A program made the translations under genes and the position numbers. Positions 29,934 through 35,939 of a stretch of DNA of 64,000 nt are shown piece after piece. The DNA is from Rhodobacteraceae bacterium Alg238-R152 (GTDB lineage Bacteria; Pseudomonadota; Alphaproteobacteria; Rhodobacterales; Rhodobacteraceae), in assembly GCA_900537125.1 (NCBI GenBank), contig UNRJ01000007.1:186001-250000 (forward strand), written 5' to 3'. Position 1 is the stretch's first letter. Every line of letters begins with the position of its first letter. Under the pieces are notes generated by a model. It was not told the origin of the DNA, did not search any database, and saw nothing but the letters and a program-made list of their open reading frames with translations.

Positions 29934-31703
29934 GTGACTACACCACCTTCTAGGCCGGAAATTGTATCAAGAATAGCAGTCTTCGCGTTTGCGGATATTG
30001 CTGAATATACACGGCACATCGCACGTGACAGTGTTGAGACGGTCAAAAAATGGGCCCGGATGCAGTCGGAGGTTTTGCTCCCAGGGTTGGATATGCACGG
30101 CGGGCGTGTTGTGTCCAGTGCTGGAGATGCTGTGCTTGTGGAATTCGGCAGCGCCACAGGTGCGGTTTCTTGGGCGCAAGCGGTTCAGGCCACGCTTCGC
30201 CAACGCCCACCAAATGAACGGGACATGCATCTGCGCATTGGGATAAACTTGGACGATGTTCTTGATGATGGCGACACGCTCCAGTCCGATGGGGTTGTTC
30301 TGGCTGCGCGTATTCACCAGTTTGCCGCGCCGGGTGAGATTGCATTGACTCAGCCTGTCAAAACCATCGTACGCAACCGGTTGCAGGTTGCGTTTCGAGA
30401 CTTGGGAACCCCGCCGTTAAAAAATATGGACCGGCCTGTTCGCGTTTTTGTGCTTGAAAACCGCCTTCGGGCGCAGGATTTGCCGGAAGCCCCACATGTT
30501 ATGTGGGAAACACGGCCAACGTTGGCGGTGCTGCCGTTTCGGGATGCTGCGGCGAAGAAGAGCGACCGGTATTTTGGTGAAGGTATTACCGAAGCCATCA
30601 TCGAAGGGGTGTCCCGCAGCCGCACAATGTTTGTTGTGTCCCGTGATAGTGCCGTGCAAATTTCTGACAGCAACCGCTCGCAAAAATCGATCGCAGCAGC
30701 GCTGGGGGTGAAATACCTCCTTAGCGGATCTATCCAACGTCAGGGAGATAGGCTTCGTCTGCACACAGAACTCAAGGACATTGACCACAACCGTGTATTG
30801 TGGACCGAACACTTTGATGGCGAGTCTTACGACCTGTTTGAGTTCCAGGACCAGATTGTTGCGAATATTTCGGCAGCGTTGGAACCCAAGGTGATGCATG
30901 CCGAAACTCAGCGCTTGGGTCAGCGGCCAACGGAAAGTCTGGATGCTTATGACTGCCTGCTGCGGGCCTTGGCTGCCGGCTATAAGGTTGATGAGACGGG
31001 ATTTTGCGAGGCGGTTTCGTTCAGTGAGCGGGCCATTGCGCTGGATCCCAACTATGCGCGTGCCCATGCCAATCTAGCGTGGAACCTGAATTTTGTGATT
31101 GCCGAAGGATACTCGAACGACGTTCAGGCGGACAAGAAAAGGGCGCTGGAGCACGCGACACGGGCGGTGGAATTGGATTTCGAGGATGCGTTTGGTTTGG
31201 TGGTACGTGGCCACATCATGGCTTTGTTGGAAAGTAACCCATTAGAGGCGCTTGATATTCTTGAGGACGGGTTGCGACAAAACGGCAATTTGCCGTTGGC
31301 TTGGGCATTGAGCGCCACCTGTCATGCCTATTTGGGGAATGGCGCCGAAGCGCGAGAGCGGCTGCGAAACGTGTCTCGACTGACGCCTTATGACCCGCTA
31401 AATTACTTTTTCCTCGCAGCCGGAGGATTGGCGGAGTTTGTGGATGGCCAATATGCCGATGGCATCAAACTGCTGCGCAAGGCGCACTACAATAAGCCAC
31501 ATTTTGTCGCCACGCTGAGGCTATTGGCTGCTGCGTTGGCGCTGGTTGGCGATAAGGCAGAAGCGCAGGCAATTGGCGCTGAACTTCTGGTGCAGGACCC
31601 AGCTTTCAAGATTTCAAATTTTATGGCATGGTATCCAATAACACGACCCGACGTGCGCGAGAGCCTTGTGCTTGGACTGAGTGCGGCAGGACTGCCCAAC
31701 TAA
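29934..31703 (+). CDS. Class III adenylate cyclase with TolB-like and TPR domains
   Basis: 589 residues from a GTG at 29934, five bases after GGGAGGT. An N-terminal cyclase homology domain (about 12-175) has metal Asp21 (FADIAEYT), Asp65 (SSAGDAVLVEF) and SDGVVLAARIHQFAAPGEI. A TolB/FlgO-like domain (about 195-300) follows, starting LAVLPFRDAA and including YLLSGSIQRQGDRLRLHTEL. TPR-type helices fill the rest (for example ERAIALDPNYARAHANLAW). No membrane segment is seen, so it is a soluble enzyme probably making cAMP and regulated through its C-terminal domains. This three-part arrangement is widespread in alphaproteobacteria. Confidence 0.88.
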   Translation: MTTPPSRPEIVSRIAVFAFADIAEYTRHIARDSVETVKKWARMQSEVLLPGLDMHGGRVVSSAGDAVLVEFGSATGAVSWAQAVQATLRQRPPNERDMHLRIGINLDDVLDDGDTLQSDGVVLAARIHQFAAPGEIALTQPVKTIVRNRLQVAFRDLGTPPLKNMDRPVRVFVLENRLRAQDLPEAPHVMWETRPTLAVLPFRDAAAKKSDRYFGEGITEAIIEGVSRSRTMFVVSRDSAVQISDSNRSQKSIAAALGVKYLLSGSIQRQGDRLRLHTELKDIDHNRVLWTEHFDGESYDLFEFQDQIVANISAALEPKVMHAETQRLGQRPTESLDAYDCLLRALAAGYKVDETGFCEAVSFSERAIALDPNYARAHANLAWNLNFVIAEGYSNDVQADKKRALEHATRAVELDFEDAFGLVVRGHIMALLESNPLEALDILEDGLRQNGNLPLAWALSATCHAYLGNGAEARERLRNVSRLTPYDPLNYFFLAAGGLAEFVDGQYADGIKLLRKAHYNKPHFVATLRLLAAALALVGDKAEAQAIGAELLVQDPAFKISNFMAWYPITRPDVRESLVLGLSAAGLPN

Positions 31704-31793
31704 TCGGGCATCGGGACTGATTTCAAATTTTGAAAGACCTTTTGGCGTGCCAGCTCGGCAGCGCCGTATCAGTCATTTTTAGGAGTGAATTCG

Positions 31794-33113
31794 ATGAGTG
31801 ATTTCGGAAGTACATCAAATGTTGGGTCAGGCGGATTAGGAGCCAGCCGTGGCTTGGGGCTTGGATTGGGACTAGGTACCTCCCGTGGGCTGGGACTGGG
31901 TCTTGGGCTTGGCCTGGGAAATGCGCGAGGTCTCGGACTTGGGTTGGGCCTTGGAAACGGGCTTGGCCTGGGCAATGGGCTTGGATTGGGCCTTGGCAAT
32001 GGGCTTGGTCTTGGAAGCACATCGTTTCTTGAGGGAGGGGCAATCCCGGAAGGTGCAGATGGCGGCATTGGTCTTGTACGCAGTTACTATGCAACACCCA
32101 TTGAGTTGGCGCTGCTGCCGTGGTCGCTGGATTTCACACCAGACAGCCGGGGCGCATCGCCATTCCCAACTGACTTTTTGATCAACCCCTATCAGGAAGA
32201 TCTCCCGCCGCTGGAATGGCGTACCGAGGACTGGGATCCGGCTCTTCGGTTTTGGACTCTGCCATTTGACAAGCATCTTACCGAATGGCTGCGGGCAGCT
32301 GATCGCTCAGAACCTGCAACACTTGCAGCCCTGGAACTGGCAGGGCACTGGAGAATATGGAAACCGGAGGCGGCGCTGCCACAGACCTGGATGGCAGCTG
32401 ATTTGGGATGGCAGCCTAGCAATCCAAATGCCTTTGATCAGGTTATCAAGCCGGAACTAGGAGCGCTGGTGGATTACATGGAGGATTCCCGGCAAAGTTA
32501 TTTGGTCGAGAGTGATGTGCAAGCAGATGGGCTGCCTGCGTATTTGATCCATTTCCTTGGGGCGAATGCCTTTGATCATCCCTACACCCTCAAATTGATT
32601 GATGTGGGTCTCGCTATGGGAAATGTGGTCTACATGGCCTATAAGGCCCACTACAAAAGGGTGCGCCCCTCGATTTTATGTCCGGGCCTGACGGTTCCCT
32701 TTGGCCCACCAGCCCATCCTGCGTTTCCCAGCGGGCATAGTTTTTTGGCGCATCTGATTGCTCTTTTGTTGCTTGAAATACCGGGGATTTATCAGCGTTA
32801 CGGAGTGTTGCCGATAACGGGTGATCCAGCGACAGAACCAGAACCGGGTGATGGCGTGCTTTTGGAAAAACCGCAATTTGGGGTCTTGGATGGCACAGAC
32901 ATTGTACGGTCTCCGTTGTTGCAAATCGCCCATCGCATTGCGGTCAACCGTGAGAGAATTGGGGTACATTACCTGTCAGATTCCATGGGGAGCCGTCATT
33001 TGGCTGGCGGAATATGGAAAGCCTTGATGGATGGAACCACTAATTGCCCAACTCTGATGACAATTATTGCTCACGCCAAAAGCGAGTGGCCGACACCATG
33101 GCCGGTTGACTAG
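31794..33113 (+). CDS. Vanadium haloperoxidase/PAP2-family protein with Gly-Leu repeat N-terminus
   Basis: 439 residues from the ATG at 31794, 8 bases after AGGAG. Residues 14-75 are an almost pure Gly-Leu repeat. The C-terminal half has the full vanadate/phosphate pocket of the haloperoxidase/PAP2 fold: K284-x6-R291-P292 (KAHYKRVRP), P-S313-G-H315 (FPSGHSFLAH) and R386-x5-H392-x3-D396 (NRERIGVHYLSD). These could serve haloperoxidase or acid phosphatase chemistry; sequence alone does not decide. There is no signal peptide. It lies 90 bp after the cyclase and is convergent with a giant zincin 18 bp away. Confidence 0.85.
   Translation: MSDFGSTSNVGSGGLGASRGLGLGLGLGTSRGLGLGLGLGLGNARGLGLGLGLGNGLGLGNGLGLGLGNGLGLGSTSFLEGGAIPEGADGGIGLVRSYYATPIELALLPWSLDFTPDSRGASPFPTDFLINPYQEDLPPLEWRTEDWDPALRFWTLPFDKHLTEWLRAADRSEPATLAALELAGHWRIWKPEAALPQTWMAADLGWQPSNPNAFDQVIKPELGALVDYMEDSRQSYLVESDVQADGLPAYLIHFLGANAFDHPYTLKLIDVGLAMGNVVYMAYKAHYKRVRPSILCPGLTVPFGPPAHPAFPSGHSFLAHLIALLLLEIPGIYQRYGVLPITGDPATEPEPGDGVLLEKPQFGVLDGTDIVRSPLLQIAHRIAVNRERIGVHYLSDSMGSRHLAGGIWKALMDGTTNCPTLMTIIAHAKSEWPTPWPVD
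31833..32018 (+). repeat. In-frame Gly-Leu coding repeat
   Basis: A degenerate tandem repeat encoding residues 14-75 of the haloperoxidase-like protein. Blocks of (GL)2-5 are separated by ASR, TSR, NAR or N spacers. The underlying DNA alternates GGN and CTN/TTG codons with varied third positions, so it looks selected at protein level, although slippage could change the copy number. Confidence 0.92.
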
Positions 33114-33131: not shown

Positions 33132-35939
33132 TCAGTCCCGAAACATCAAGCCGAGGTTGTTGTCACCAGACACAAGATCGATAAGGCTCCGCGGGTGCGT
33201 CGGAGGATCTTGGTGCGGTGGTATCGACACCATCACGTTAGACAACGGGAAGGTATTGGCGATGTCCGCCTGACAGGAGATTTCCAGCAGAACGACCCTT
33301 TGGTGTGTTGAATTTGGCGGCTGGTTTTGAAGTGCAGCTTCCAACTCTGGCAGATCCAAGTCGAAGCTGTCTTGAGGGGGTGAGGCTGGCACCGGGTGGA
33401 AAGCGCTCTTATGCGTCCAGTCGATCTCATGGACCTGTCCAGATGGCGTGGCGATGGGGACTCTTCCAAGCCAAAACCGCGCGAGCACTGGGCCAGACGG
33501 GGCTGCACCGCGGTTGCCGATATGAAACACCGTTTTTGAGGGGGTGGACCACAGTCGCTCTCCTTCCCAATTGAGCGAGACCGGAGTGTAACTGCCGGGG
33601 TCGTAGGTTTCTCGGCCGGCGGGGGTGCGCACCTGTTCGGGACGGTCATCTTTCACATAAATGTCGACCCTTGGTGGTTGTCCTGCCTTGTTGACCACAA
33701 CCTCCGGATCGTTGGGGAACATGCCCTGTGCCTCAAAGGCCCATCGCACAACCTTTTGCGCCTGCCCACCACGCCACACAGGGTGGTTCGCGACATCATC
33801 CGGCATCGTCAAGGGCACTTGCATCTGCCGGCTGGCGTCCTCCATGCCCAATTCTAACATCTCTGCCCGAGAGGGGGATTGGGCCAATCCTGCGATGGCA
33901 CGCACCAAGAGGAATAGCGTGATGTGGGCGGCGCGTTTGCGCACCTCTACATCTGAGACACCTGCGCGCAGCGTATCACCTCCAAGTGATCGATAGAGCC
34001 GGAACAGTGTTGACGACAGGATTTGCTCGGTCAGATAGCCTTTGGTGACGTGGCAATCTGCAGGTGGTGCTTGTAAGATTGCACGGTTCAGCAGCCCGTA
34101 CCAAGCCCAGCCCGTAAGGGGTGAACGATCATGGCGCCGTGGTGCAAACACAAACGGATAGGTGATGCCCCTGAACCGGGTTGAGATTTCCTCTGTGGCT
34201 CGGTTGAGACTGGAGCGTGGATCAAAATAGATCGCCGCCATGGCATCGCCCGCACTATGGGCAAAATCAAACTCAAGTTTGCCTATTCTGGCGGCGAGCA
34301 AATAGTGCCCAAATTCATGCATCATCCAGCGGCCACTCACCGAGATGCCTAGCGGCTCTGGTCGGCCAAAGGTGCCGTCATCGTTTTTTGGCCTAGAGAA
34401 GCGGTTCAAGTTCGCAAGCGCGAGATGCATGTTTATATAGGGTTTAGGCGGAGGAGGTGAGGCAGCGTCATCGTCATTCGACTGCTCCTGACAGTTGAAG
34501 GTCACCTGTGCATTGATCGTGCGCCCGCTGCGGCCTGGTCCGGGAGAAATGCCTGAACGGTAAAATACCTGGAGCTCTTGCTGAGCGCGCGTAACAAAGG
34601 TGTCAGGTGGATGGCCAAACTTCGACATCATCTCAAAAAAATCGAGACTGTTGGCATAGGCACTCAGCGCAGAGAAATCGTTGCGGCGCGGTAGGGGAGC
34701 TTGCCCGCCATTCAAATGGACAGATTTCACAGTCTCGCCCGCGTTCGAAAGAGCGTCATCTGCGGGTACATACCAAGGGCAGAGGCGGACTTGAAACCCC
34801 GATTGCTGTAAGCGGAGGCCCACACCACGCGCAAAGTCTCGCGCGGTTCGGAAGCGCATTAGTATGTCATCTTTGCGGGCAGGCCGCCGCTGAACCCAGT
34901 TGTAAATGTTGCCAGCGCCAAGATGTTTGGGAGAGGAAGAGGGCACCTCCGCAAACACCATCGCTTCGCCGGGTAACGCCGCGTGTGTGGTTAAGGCGCA
35001 AGTTTGGCTTCGGATCAGTTCTGGGTCTTTTCCGGGCGAGAAGCGGATGTCGCTTAGGACCTGAAAGCTCTCGGGTTCAGGAGGCTTGTTACTGGGTCTC
35101 AAGGCTTGCGAGGACAGGCGGAGTGTGATCGGATCCAATCGATTACGCGCGACGGCAGGACGCATAAACGAAATTTGATTGTGCCGAATGGAAGTTTTGG
35201 AAACACCTGCTTTGGCGGCAATGTGGTCTCGCATGTCAGACTGAATCGCGCGCTGCGTCATGCCGCCAACCAAGGCGTCGCCGAAATCGGGAAACTCGTC
35301 GGGATCAACGGTTTCCAGTAGCTCGGTGGCGCTTTGTCGTCCGACCGAAGGGAATTCAGCTGTCATAGAGCGAACAATGACCCGATATACAGGTCGGTTT
35401 TCAGTACCGCGCACTTCTACATCCATCGGGACCCGGACGCCGCTGTCAAAGCCTGAGATGGAGCCGTCCGTAGTGTAGAATTCAGTGGCGACCATCACGA
35501 TGGGAGCTGGCAAAGCGTGGTGCTCATTGCGAGATAAGTTCCAGCTGGCAATCGATGGCACCGGTGCAGTGATTGGTGCATTCCATGGGGGCCAAATGTT
35601 CAGCCAACGGATGGTTGCAGCTGCGTCACTTGTTGGCGGGGCAGTGCCAGTAGGCGATGCAAGCTGGGCGCGCCAGGGCTCCGGCATGAGGATGTCATCA
35701 TCCTCCATAAACCTCGACAGCGCATTCAGATATCTACTCGCAACCGTCTTTAAGCTTTCGGGCAATGTGTTGGCGGCATCTTCGCCGTCAATATCTGCGA
35801 TGTAGGGGATGGCGGCATGTTCAACCAGACGCGAAGGGCGCCCGGAACCGGGGTATTGCCTGCCCAACCTTAGCCACGGTGGTGGGAAAAAATCGGCCTG
35901 GTATTCATCTGGCGGCCATTGCGGATCACTAATAGGCAA
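33132..35939 (-). CDS. Large uncharacterised HEFGH zincin-like protein (935 residues)
   Basis: I do not recognise the family. The 935-residue protein has no signal peptide or membrane segment. A zincin motif H541-E-F-G-H545 sits in a helix (WMMHEFGHYLLAARIG), followed by DFAHSAGD and NRATEEIS, either of which could carry the third zinc ligand. The N-terminal 500 residues are mixed and proline-rich. A run of four Asp/Asn and five Pro residues lies around 500. The last 200 residues are beta-prone, with an Ig-like VDIYVKDD and VVLLEISCQADIA. It is convergent with the haloperoxidase-like gene. A peptidase activity is plausible, not shown. Confidence 0.75.
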   Translation of the reverse strand: MPISDPQWPPDEYQADFFPPPWLRLGRQYPGSGRPSRLVEHAAIPYIADIDGEDAANTLPESLKTVASRYLNALSRFMEDDDILMPEPWRAQLASPTGTAPPTSDAAATIRWLNIWPPWNAPITAPVPSIASWNLSRNEHHALPAPIVMVATEFYTTDGSISGFDSGVRVPMDVEVRGTENRPVYRVIVRSMTAEFPSVGRQSATELLETVDPDEFPDFGDALVGGMTQRAIQSDMRDHIAAKAGVSKTSIRHNQISFMRPAVARNRLDPITLRLSSQALRPSNKPPEPESFQVLSDIRFSPGKDPELIRSQTCALTTHAALPGEAMVFAEVPSSSPKHLGAGNIYNWVQRRPARKDDILMRFRTARDFARGVGLRLQQSGFQVRLCPWYVPADDALSNAGETVKSVHLNGGQAPLPRRNDFSALSAYANSLDFFEMMSKFGHPPDTFVTRAQQELQVFYRSGISPGPGRSGRTINAQVTFNCQEQSNDDDAASPPPPKPYINMHLALANLNRFSRPKNDDGTFGRPEPLGISVSGRWMMHEFGHYLLAARIGKLEFDFAHSAGDAMAAIYFDPRSSLNRATEEISTRFRGITYPFVFAPRRHDRSPLTGWAWYGLLNRAILQAPPADCHVTKGYLTEQILSSTLFRLYRSLGGDTLRAGVSDVEVRKRAAHITLFLLVRAIAGLAQSPSRAEMLELGMEDASRQMQVPLTMPDDVANHPVWRGGQAQKVVRWAFEAQGMFPNDPEVVVNKAGQPPRVDIYVKDDRPEQVRTPAGRETYDPGSYTPVSLNWEGERLWSTPSKTVFHIGNRGAAPSGPVLARFWLGRVPIATPSGQVHEIDWTHKSAFHPVPASPPQDSFDLDLPELEAALQNQPPNSTHQRVVLLEISCQADIANTFPLSNVMVSIPPHQDPPTHPRSLIDLVSGDNNLGLMFRD

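Follow-up and report, generated by a model that had tools for sequence, protein, structure and literature searches.

A PAP2-fold enzyme with an exchangeable tandem-repeat array in a conserved cassette with a TPR regulator and a protease

Comparison of homologous loci shows that a predicted gene for an enzyme of the PAP2/haloperoxidase fold is the middle member of a conserved three-gene cassette, with a TPR regulator and a protease as the other two members. The gene was read in the window, a stretch of 64,000 nucleotides from Rhodobacteraceae bacterium Alg238-R152, and it carries a tandem peptide array ahead of the catalytic domain. As judged from the translated reading frames, the slot is conserved while its unit is not: the array peptide is stable over species and neighbouring genera and is swapped over longer times. 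A slot with a near-perfect repeat but no fixed unit is unusual in bacterial proteins. It implies that selection acts on the repetition as such or on a fit that is private to some partner.

The repeat-bearing gene and its predicted enzyme

The coding sequence occupies positions 31794-33113 of the plus strand (ATG at 31794, stop at 33113) and encodes 439 amino acid residues. A likely ribosome-binding site, TAGGAG, was recognised by eye at 31780-31785 on the same strand, ending 8 bases before the ATG. The Gly/Leu blocks that the earlier note had described at residues 14-75 were borne out. This array spans 31833-32018 (plus strand) and consists of 28 Gly, 21 Leu, 4 Asn, 3 Ser, 3 Arg, 2 Ala and 1 Thr residues. 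The protein reaches a tandem score of 14, whereas 2000 shuffled versions of it scored no higher than 6. AlphaFold prediction for the window protein and three homologues gave a pLDDT of 31 and a pTM of 0.23 and was unusable.

The PAP2 domain comprises residues 271-412 (32604-33029, plus strand). The match of the window protein to PF01569, with an E-value of 6e-6 and 26.5 bits, falls slightly short of the gathering score, 27.2 bits, a cut-off exceeded by 8 of the 10 homologues checked. The pocket behind the leader had been read as intact, and all seven residues named, K284, R291, S313, H315, R386, H392 and D396, are indeed present. They are also invariant in 22/22 rows of an alignment of homologues, which were hand-picked and leave out L023, the sole first-round homologue with no array.

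The catalytic motif of the PAP2 superfamily, to which class A acid phosphatases and vanadium haloperoxidases belong, is KX6RP, PSxH, RX5HX3D. The repeat-bearing proteins have the same motif, and they differ from this superfamily in bearing the array and sitting in the cassette. The vanadate-pocket residues are present, but the acid phosphatases share the motif, and these residues are therefore not decisive for a haloperoxidase. The best solved relatives of the profile are class A acid phosphatases (7e-21), followed by vanadium bromoperoxidases (2e-10); a greater sequence closeness to haloperoxidases than to phosphatases was not found. The residue H308, located seven residues before the histidine of PSGH, is invariant in the alignment, and a histidine in this type of position is typical of algal bromoperoxidases. 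The protein had been described as a vanadium-haloperoxidase-like enzyme. The fold in this description stands, the haloperoxidase label is tentative, and the enzyme is best regarded as a putative phosphatase or haloperoxidase.

Distribution and composition of the arrays

The query for the homologue search was the 363 residues behind the repeat, chosen so that the repeat would not bias the result. It matched 27 of 295 family genomes at 1e-5, and also three named genome contigs, from Ruegeria conchae, Tateyamaria and Sulfitobacter. With a catalytic-domain profile of 22 rows, matches at 1e-10 were obtained in 129 of 394 genomes of the family and in 36 of 385 of the class, and matches at 1e-20 in 28 of 398 genomes of the phylum; these profile counts include array-less relatives. 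Profile A1 covers the catalytic domain alone and array-bearing members only.

The 123 distinct homologue ORFs that were read come from loci found before the phylum search, and they cover part of the places listed by the profile search of the family genomes. A strict detector found a tandem array ahead of the domain in 97 of them. There are 70 different units, some of which are variants of each other (GLGLGL and GLGLGS), and the units GL, GM, NSQ, GGMN, DAR, NR, GWT and others occupy the same slot. The earlier note had proposed a search for the same repeat before this domain; the homologues retain the slot, and the unit in it differs by lineage.

Among the 26 ORFs with no array by the strict detector, 9 score above 114 bits and 17 below 109 bits. 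Inspection by eye of the nine high-scoring ORFs revealed degenerate or interrupted arrays in seven (L076, L100, L104, L105, L107, L109 and L154), while L103 is truncated and L084 has none. The 17 ORFs below 109 bits, the weakest of the 123, have no array, and many of them begin with a signal-peptide-like N-terminus (by eye). L084 and L093 are PAP2 homologues of approximately 480-500 residues from other families of the class, with scores of 127 and 107 bits, and neither an array nor a regulator was found in their short flanks.

The search of the phylum gave 17 loci, two of which are known genes; G250 C7, G294 C2, G920 and G924 are left out of the phylum loci read. Of the new loci, the 13 that score above 105 bits all carry an array (by eye) next to an S8 gene, and both features are missing from the remaining two, which score 100.5 and 77 bits. 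The arrays at the 13 loci (by eye) are built of NK, GGAS, GGA, GVA, GGNWF, ASG, AGR, GNQ, GGF and TQQ, and two of these loci, L247 and L248, come from outside the class. The distribution of the cassette is patchy, as the same-genus genome G210 has no match. No relative was found in the viral contigs searched. On plasmids, the window domain found a single weak record, from Bosea, and the S8b-type domain matched 109 records, of which 68 are from Rhizobium and 21 from Phaeobacter. An array is present (by eye) in all 18 plasmid loci examined.

The periods of the 97 arrays are 3 (56 arrays), 2 (18), 4 (15), 6 (5), 8 (2) and 5 (1), with a median copy number of 9. Compared with the composition of the domain, the arrays are enriched five-fold in Asn and four-fold in Gly. 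Pro and Cys are absent from the units of all 97 arrays; for independent arrays with the composition of the domain this would have a chance of about 1e-9 (about 1e-8 for Pro alone), although related arrays are not independent. The unit is basic in 23 arrays, neutral in 65 and acidic in 9, and ranges from hydrophilic through hydrophobic. Membrane association or hydrophobic assembly had been suggested earlier for the Gly-Leu leader. The homologue units, such as NR, SR, KT, DAR, NSQ and HEG, run from basic to acidic to hydrophobic, and the Gly-Leu chemistry as such is therefore not supported; this role was dropped, because the units span every polarity. A genome-wide shared tag was also rejected. 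In its own genome the Gly-Leu array has, beyond itself, only two weak overlapping matches (E-values of 0.007 and 0.011), and the paralogues within G190 carry the different units DGAV, GS and AYS.

A tandem score of at least 12 is reached by 77 of 85 repeat-PAP2 genes. As a background, none of 166 partner ORFs reaches it, and neither does any of 1073 other nearby ORFs (of at least 150 residues and not overlapping the repeat-PAP2 or partner ORFs; many are probably not genes). The earlier note had taken the varied codons as a sign of selection on the peptide. In the window array alone, the 21 Gly-Leu dipeptides are encoded by 13 different hexamers and identical successive pairs number 0 against 1.3 expected (P = 0.26), which is not significant. 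The test pooled over 97 arrays is clearer and has the same direction. Neighbouring residues are identical in 2523 of 2574 pairs. Neighbouring codons are identical in 758 of 2433, against 1062 expected from the domain codon usage of each gene and 938 expected when synonymous codons were shuffled inside the arrays. For single arrays the shuffle z is below -2 in 15 of 97 and above 2 in 4 of 97. The predicted array peptide is shown by these comparisons to be under purifying selection. Unlike most arrays, the two GM arrays, L034 and L006, show more identity between neighbouring codons than expected and are perhaps recent expansions.

Closely related species retain the unit. All six species of the genus of G383, with pairwise domain identities of 84-96%, carry NSQ, in 9 copies in five species (with one altered copy in two of them) and in 8 copies in one; two of the six have in addition a second, different homologue. 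Nine copies of NSQ are also found in G320 and G002, whose domains are about 78-80% and 66-69% identical to those of this genus, and at 59-60% identity G020 carries 19 copies of GNQ. In the 21 pairwise comparisons of seven NSQ arrays, which left out the 8-copy array, 5-18 of 27 codons differ against 0-2 of 27 residues. Ser is encoded by AGY or TCN at some NSQ positions, which suggests that whole units were gained and lost. Five Phaeobacter strains carry NSF, in 6 copies in three strains and 7 in two, and both states occur in each of two species. The PAP2 tree, built on 107 rows, contains a well-supported clade with ten members that holds the units AVE, EGH, EGW, GVQ, GGQ, GNQ and NSQ. The earlier note had named homologues with no repeat at all, and a randomly varying length, as the outcome that would count against it. 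The survey shows another pattern, with a strict array in 97 of 123 ORFs, none in the 17 weakest, and a nearly constant copy number within the genus of G383.

The regulator and the protease partners

The earlier note described neither of the other two members of the cassette. The upstream member in the window is the TPR regulator at 29934-31703 (plus strand), which matches TPR_19 at 4.6e-9 and, below threshold, TolB_N (0.0032) and a class III cyclase (0.019). In its weak cyclase-like N-terminus the first aspartate region, FADIAEYT, is present; the usual lysine and asparagine positions of a cyclase seem to be missing, and presumably it may be a pseudo-cyclase. Clustering of neighbours placed a TPR protein immediately upstream, or in divergent orientation, at 79 of 123 homologues, many with short flanks, and at none of the 17 low-scoring homologues within their short upstream stretches. 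A longer context was read in 84 stretches with 85 repeat-PAP2 genes, the window and L034-L036 included. A regulator homologue was found by HMM near 80 of the 85 genes, on the opposite side in three of the 80, and none was found by HMM at L163, L169, L206, L223 and L231. The regulator of L157 combines TPR with BTAD and a weak match to Trans_reg_C.

The RefSeq annotation of plasmids from Rhizobium, Phaeobacter and Aliiroseovarius has the same order of regulator (SARP or winged helix), PAP2 and S8 peptidase. The cassettes of Palleronia and Rhizobium johnstonii are annotated likewise with the regulator unnamed. In Terrarubrum the regulator and the S8 protein are annotated as hypothetical proteins, and both were recognised by HMMs. 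The S8 gene is absent from the annotation table of R. beringeri TP6, which is incomplete, and two plasmid records have no annotation to compare. In L268, from Phaeobacter inhibens M647, the annotation shows the regulator and the S8 region just as shorter ORFs and the cassette looks broken, while the array reads through as usual. Two Rhizobium plasmids have genes for an HEXXH putative peptide modification protein and a ThiF adenylyltransferase after the cassette (L264, 6910-9434; L265, 7047-9436), which hint at peptide modification. In Palleronia (L262, 6955-9579) the cassette is followed by heme peroxidase and C1 peptidase genes, another instance of a protease next to a peroxidase.

A protease ORF lies within the stretch for 84 of the 85 repeat-PAP2 genes, mostly within some 350 bases, and the protease families are unrelated by HMM or motif. 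The best-scoring types are S8a (40), S8b (15), fused PAP2-S8 (3), zinc HExGH (8), papain-like C1 (8), S8c (7), A4 (2) and S1 (1). Exceptions are the S8a gene of L213, located upstream at a distance of about 2 kb, and those of the S8c type, which are divergent and some 2 kb off, beyond the regulator. Only for L236 (4231-5193), with the short array GGGE x3, was no protease found nearby. At four loci (L170, L197, L204 and L210) a single natural protein combines the array, PAP2 and an S8 subtilase; the fused class counts three since L170 is tallied under its S1 trypsin neighbour. A trypsin-family gene follows L170, L197 and L210, and the fusions L170 and L210 start with a Tat-like signal (by eye).

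The partner in the window is convergent, located at 33132-35939 on the minus strand. It is a zinc endopeptidase of 935 residues as predicted from its motifs, HEFGH at residues 541-545 (34305-34319, minus strand), which is of the HExGH type, and then HSxGD; both are invariant in 8 homologues. No match to Pfam or NCBIfam was found for this protein. Its homologues adjoin all 8 GL/GM/GQ-type genes that have longer context, and it looks like a member of an undescribed zincin family conserved in 8 loci, the window included. For representative partners of the other types, Pfam gave S8 matches of up to 5e-19, A4 matches of 3e-23 and 1e-27 and trypsin matches of 4e-9, 3e-12 and 1e-5. The C1 matches of three proteins are under the cut-off (0.0016-0.0024) and L184 has none; Cys, His and Asn motifs of the C1 type were seen by eye in six full-length proteins. 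In sets of 40, 19 and 7 putative subtilases, a loose Ser pattern occurs in 39, 19 and 7 proteins and a loose His pattern in 18, 10 and 0, respectively.

The unit matches the protease type roughly, in groups that are clades and so are not independent: Lys or Arg occurs in the unit of 14/14 S8b-linked genes with a detected array (and, by eye, in the LHK of L169), 3/4 fusions, 7/40 S8a-linked and 2/7 S8c-linked genes, and in 0/8 metalloprotease-linked, 0/8 C1-linked and 0/2 A4-linked genes. Partial Mantel tests of unit against protease given the regulator yielded p = 0.036 for S8a (n = 37) and p = 0.0016 for S8b (n = 14). When PAP2 was controlled for, the same comparison fell short of significance (S8a: p = 0.07, n = 37; S8b: p = 0.22, n = 14), and unit against PAP2 given the protease yielded p = 0.0066 for S8b and 0.19 for S8a. 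With such mixed results, shared ancestry is sufficient to account for the co-variation of unit and protease. A close PAP2 clade, with S8a partners wherever the context was read, has the units NSQ, GNQ, HEG, WEG and AVE; this diversity strains a strict match of specificity.

Possible roles of the array and comparison with known systems

These features hint at a control system that is undescribed. The reading that we tentatively prefer, while rating its chance at somewhat under even, is that the array serves as a tether or propeptide with many sites, which the cassette's own protease would cut to control the enzyme. The regulator would signal, the protease would cut the array, and the enzyme would be freed or switched. 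Identical units would provide redundant cutting and an equal fit of every copy to one protease, and when the specificity of the protease shifted the whole array would be replaced by a new unit. Pro would be shunned because it blocks most proteases, and the codons may be scrambled because repeats at the DNA level would be unstable. We infer the action of the protease on the array from its near-constant linkage across unrelated families, the fusions, the absence of Pro and the rough match of unit and clade. In the S8b-type proteins several tens of residues precede the array (about 95 in Rhizobium), so that the array there is a linker and not a leader. Perfect repetition is not fully explained by a tether, as one site suffices for cutting. 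In addition, L236 has an array although no protease was found near it, and 33/40 S8a-linked units are non-basic.

Alternatively, the array could be a multivalent docking tag for the TPR regulator, whose copies would give avidity in a mutual control of regulator and enzyme. Short linear peptides are bound in the grooves of TPR domains, and the regulator is the partner common to all protease types. We consider this unlikely. The unit does not track the regulator given PAP2 (partial Mantel p = 0.20 for S8a, 0.76 for S8b and 0.26 when 76 genes were pooled), nor does it given the protease (0.25 for S8a and 0.88 for S8b), and the near-constant protease would be left unexplained.

Somewhat more doubtful is a physical device, in which any regular Pro-free repeat would give ordered assembly, condensation or a spacer. 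This is consistent with a composition that is free while regularity and the absence of Pro are kept, and with the enrichment of Gly and Asn. However, oppositely charged units of two, three and four residues have no obvious common geometry, and a generic linker needs neither a perfect repeat nor a protease neighbour.

The array might also be a peptide precursor, chopped into copies of a lineage-specific peptide that is read by the TPR regulator or by other cells. The near-perfect identity inside an array and the turnover between lineages would suit a private signal, the combination of SARP or winged-helix regulators with TPR recalls the TPR peptide receptors, and the genes that follow the Rhizobium cassettes would fit such a role. 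However, a signal made of only 2-4 residues would be very short, the neighbour clusters contain no exporter as a constant neighbour, and paralogues of one genome carry different units; we therefore regard a precursor as improbable. The same low probability is given to its most specific form, a lineage-private peptide code in which the protease would release copies (NSQ, GL or NR), the TPR regulator would recognise them and PAP2 would be the output. If true, it would unite enzyme, processing and self-recognition in one gene set, with the code word replaced wholesale between lineages. Neutral replication slippage in an unconstrained linker, which the copy changes between Phaeobacter strains and the four arrays with excess identical codons would favour, is very improbable and was rejected, because the codons are scrambled below chance while the peptide is conserved, both within arrays and across the NSQ species, and because other nearby ORFs have no such repeats.

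The near-constant regulator and the exchangeable protease make the array a testable system. Besides two genomes outside the class, its range includes Roseobacter-type bacteria and plasmids of Rhizobium and Phaeobacter. Should the protease target the array, the cassettes would offer dozens of natural protease-substrate pairs; if it is not, they would point to a new recognition code.

None of ten cassette proteins matched a known anti-phage defence system in PADLOC-DB 2.0.0 at an E-value of 0.01. In the literature, among the matches listed (titles and starts of abstracts, with few subscription papers), neither the array nor the cassette is described. It is useful to compare the cassette with systems of similar logic. 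The RRNPP systems consist of a TPR regulator and short peptides processed by proteases, with precursors encoded by small separate ORFs. The TPR regulator is common to both, and short peptides processed by a protease may be; in the cassette the regulator has BTAD and a weak Trans_reg_C match (L157) or a weak cyclase-like N-terminus (window). The repeat here lies inside an enzyme and not in a separate ORF. In bacterial gasdermins the effector, a pore former with an inhibitory peptide and no tandem array, adjoins a protease whose family varies between operons. The cassette shares this operon logic of an effector beside a protease of varying family, but its effector is an enzyme with a tandem array.

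The trait of a protease-activated pair, an effector with an adjacent protease gene, is seen for 84/85 repeat-PAP2 genes and at 13/13 new loci above 105 bits. The nearest published logic that we encountered is that of HamM (PMC12799240). HamM-type pairs of nuclease and protease, in which cutting by the protease activates the effector, recur in otherwise unrelated systems, and the HamM pair itself joins a nuclease to a trypsin-like protease, with two sites mapped (PMC12799240). The two are alike in pairing an effector enzyme with a protease, although cutting in the repeat-PAP2 cassette is only presumed; they differ in that the cassette has a PAP2 enzyme, an array and several unrelated protease families (PMC12799240).
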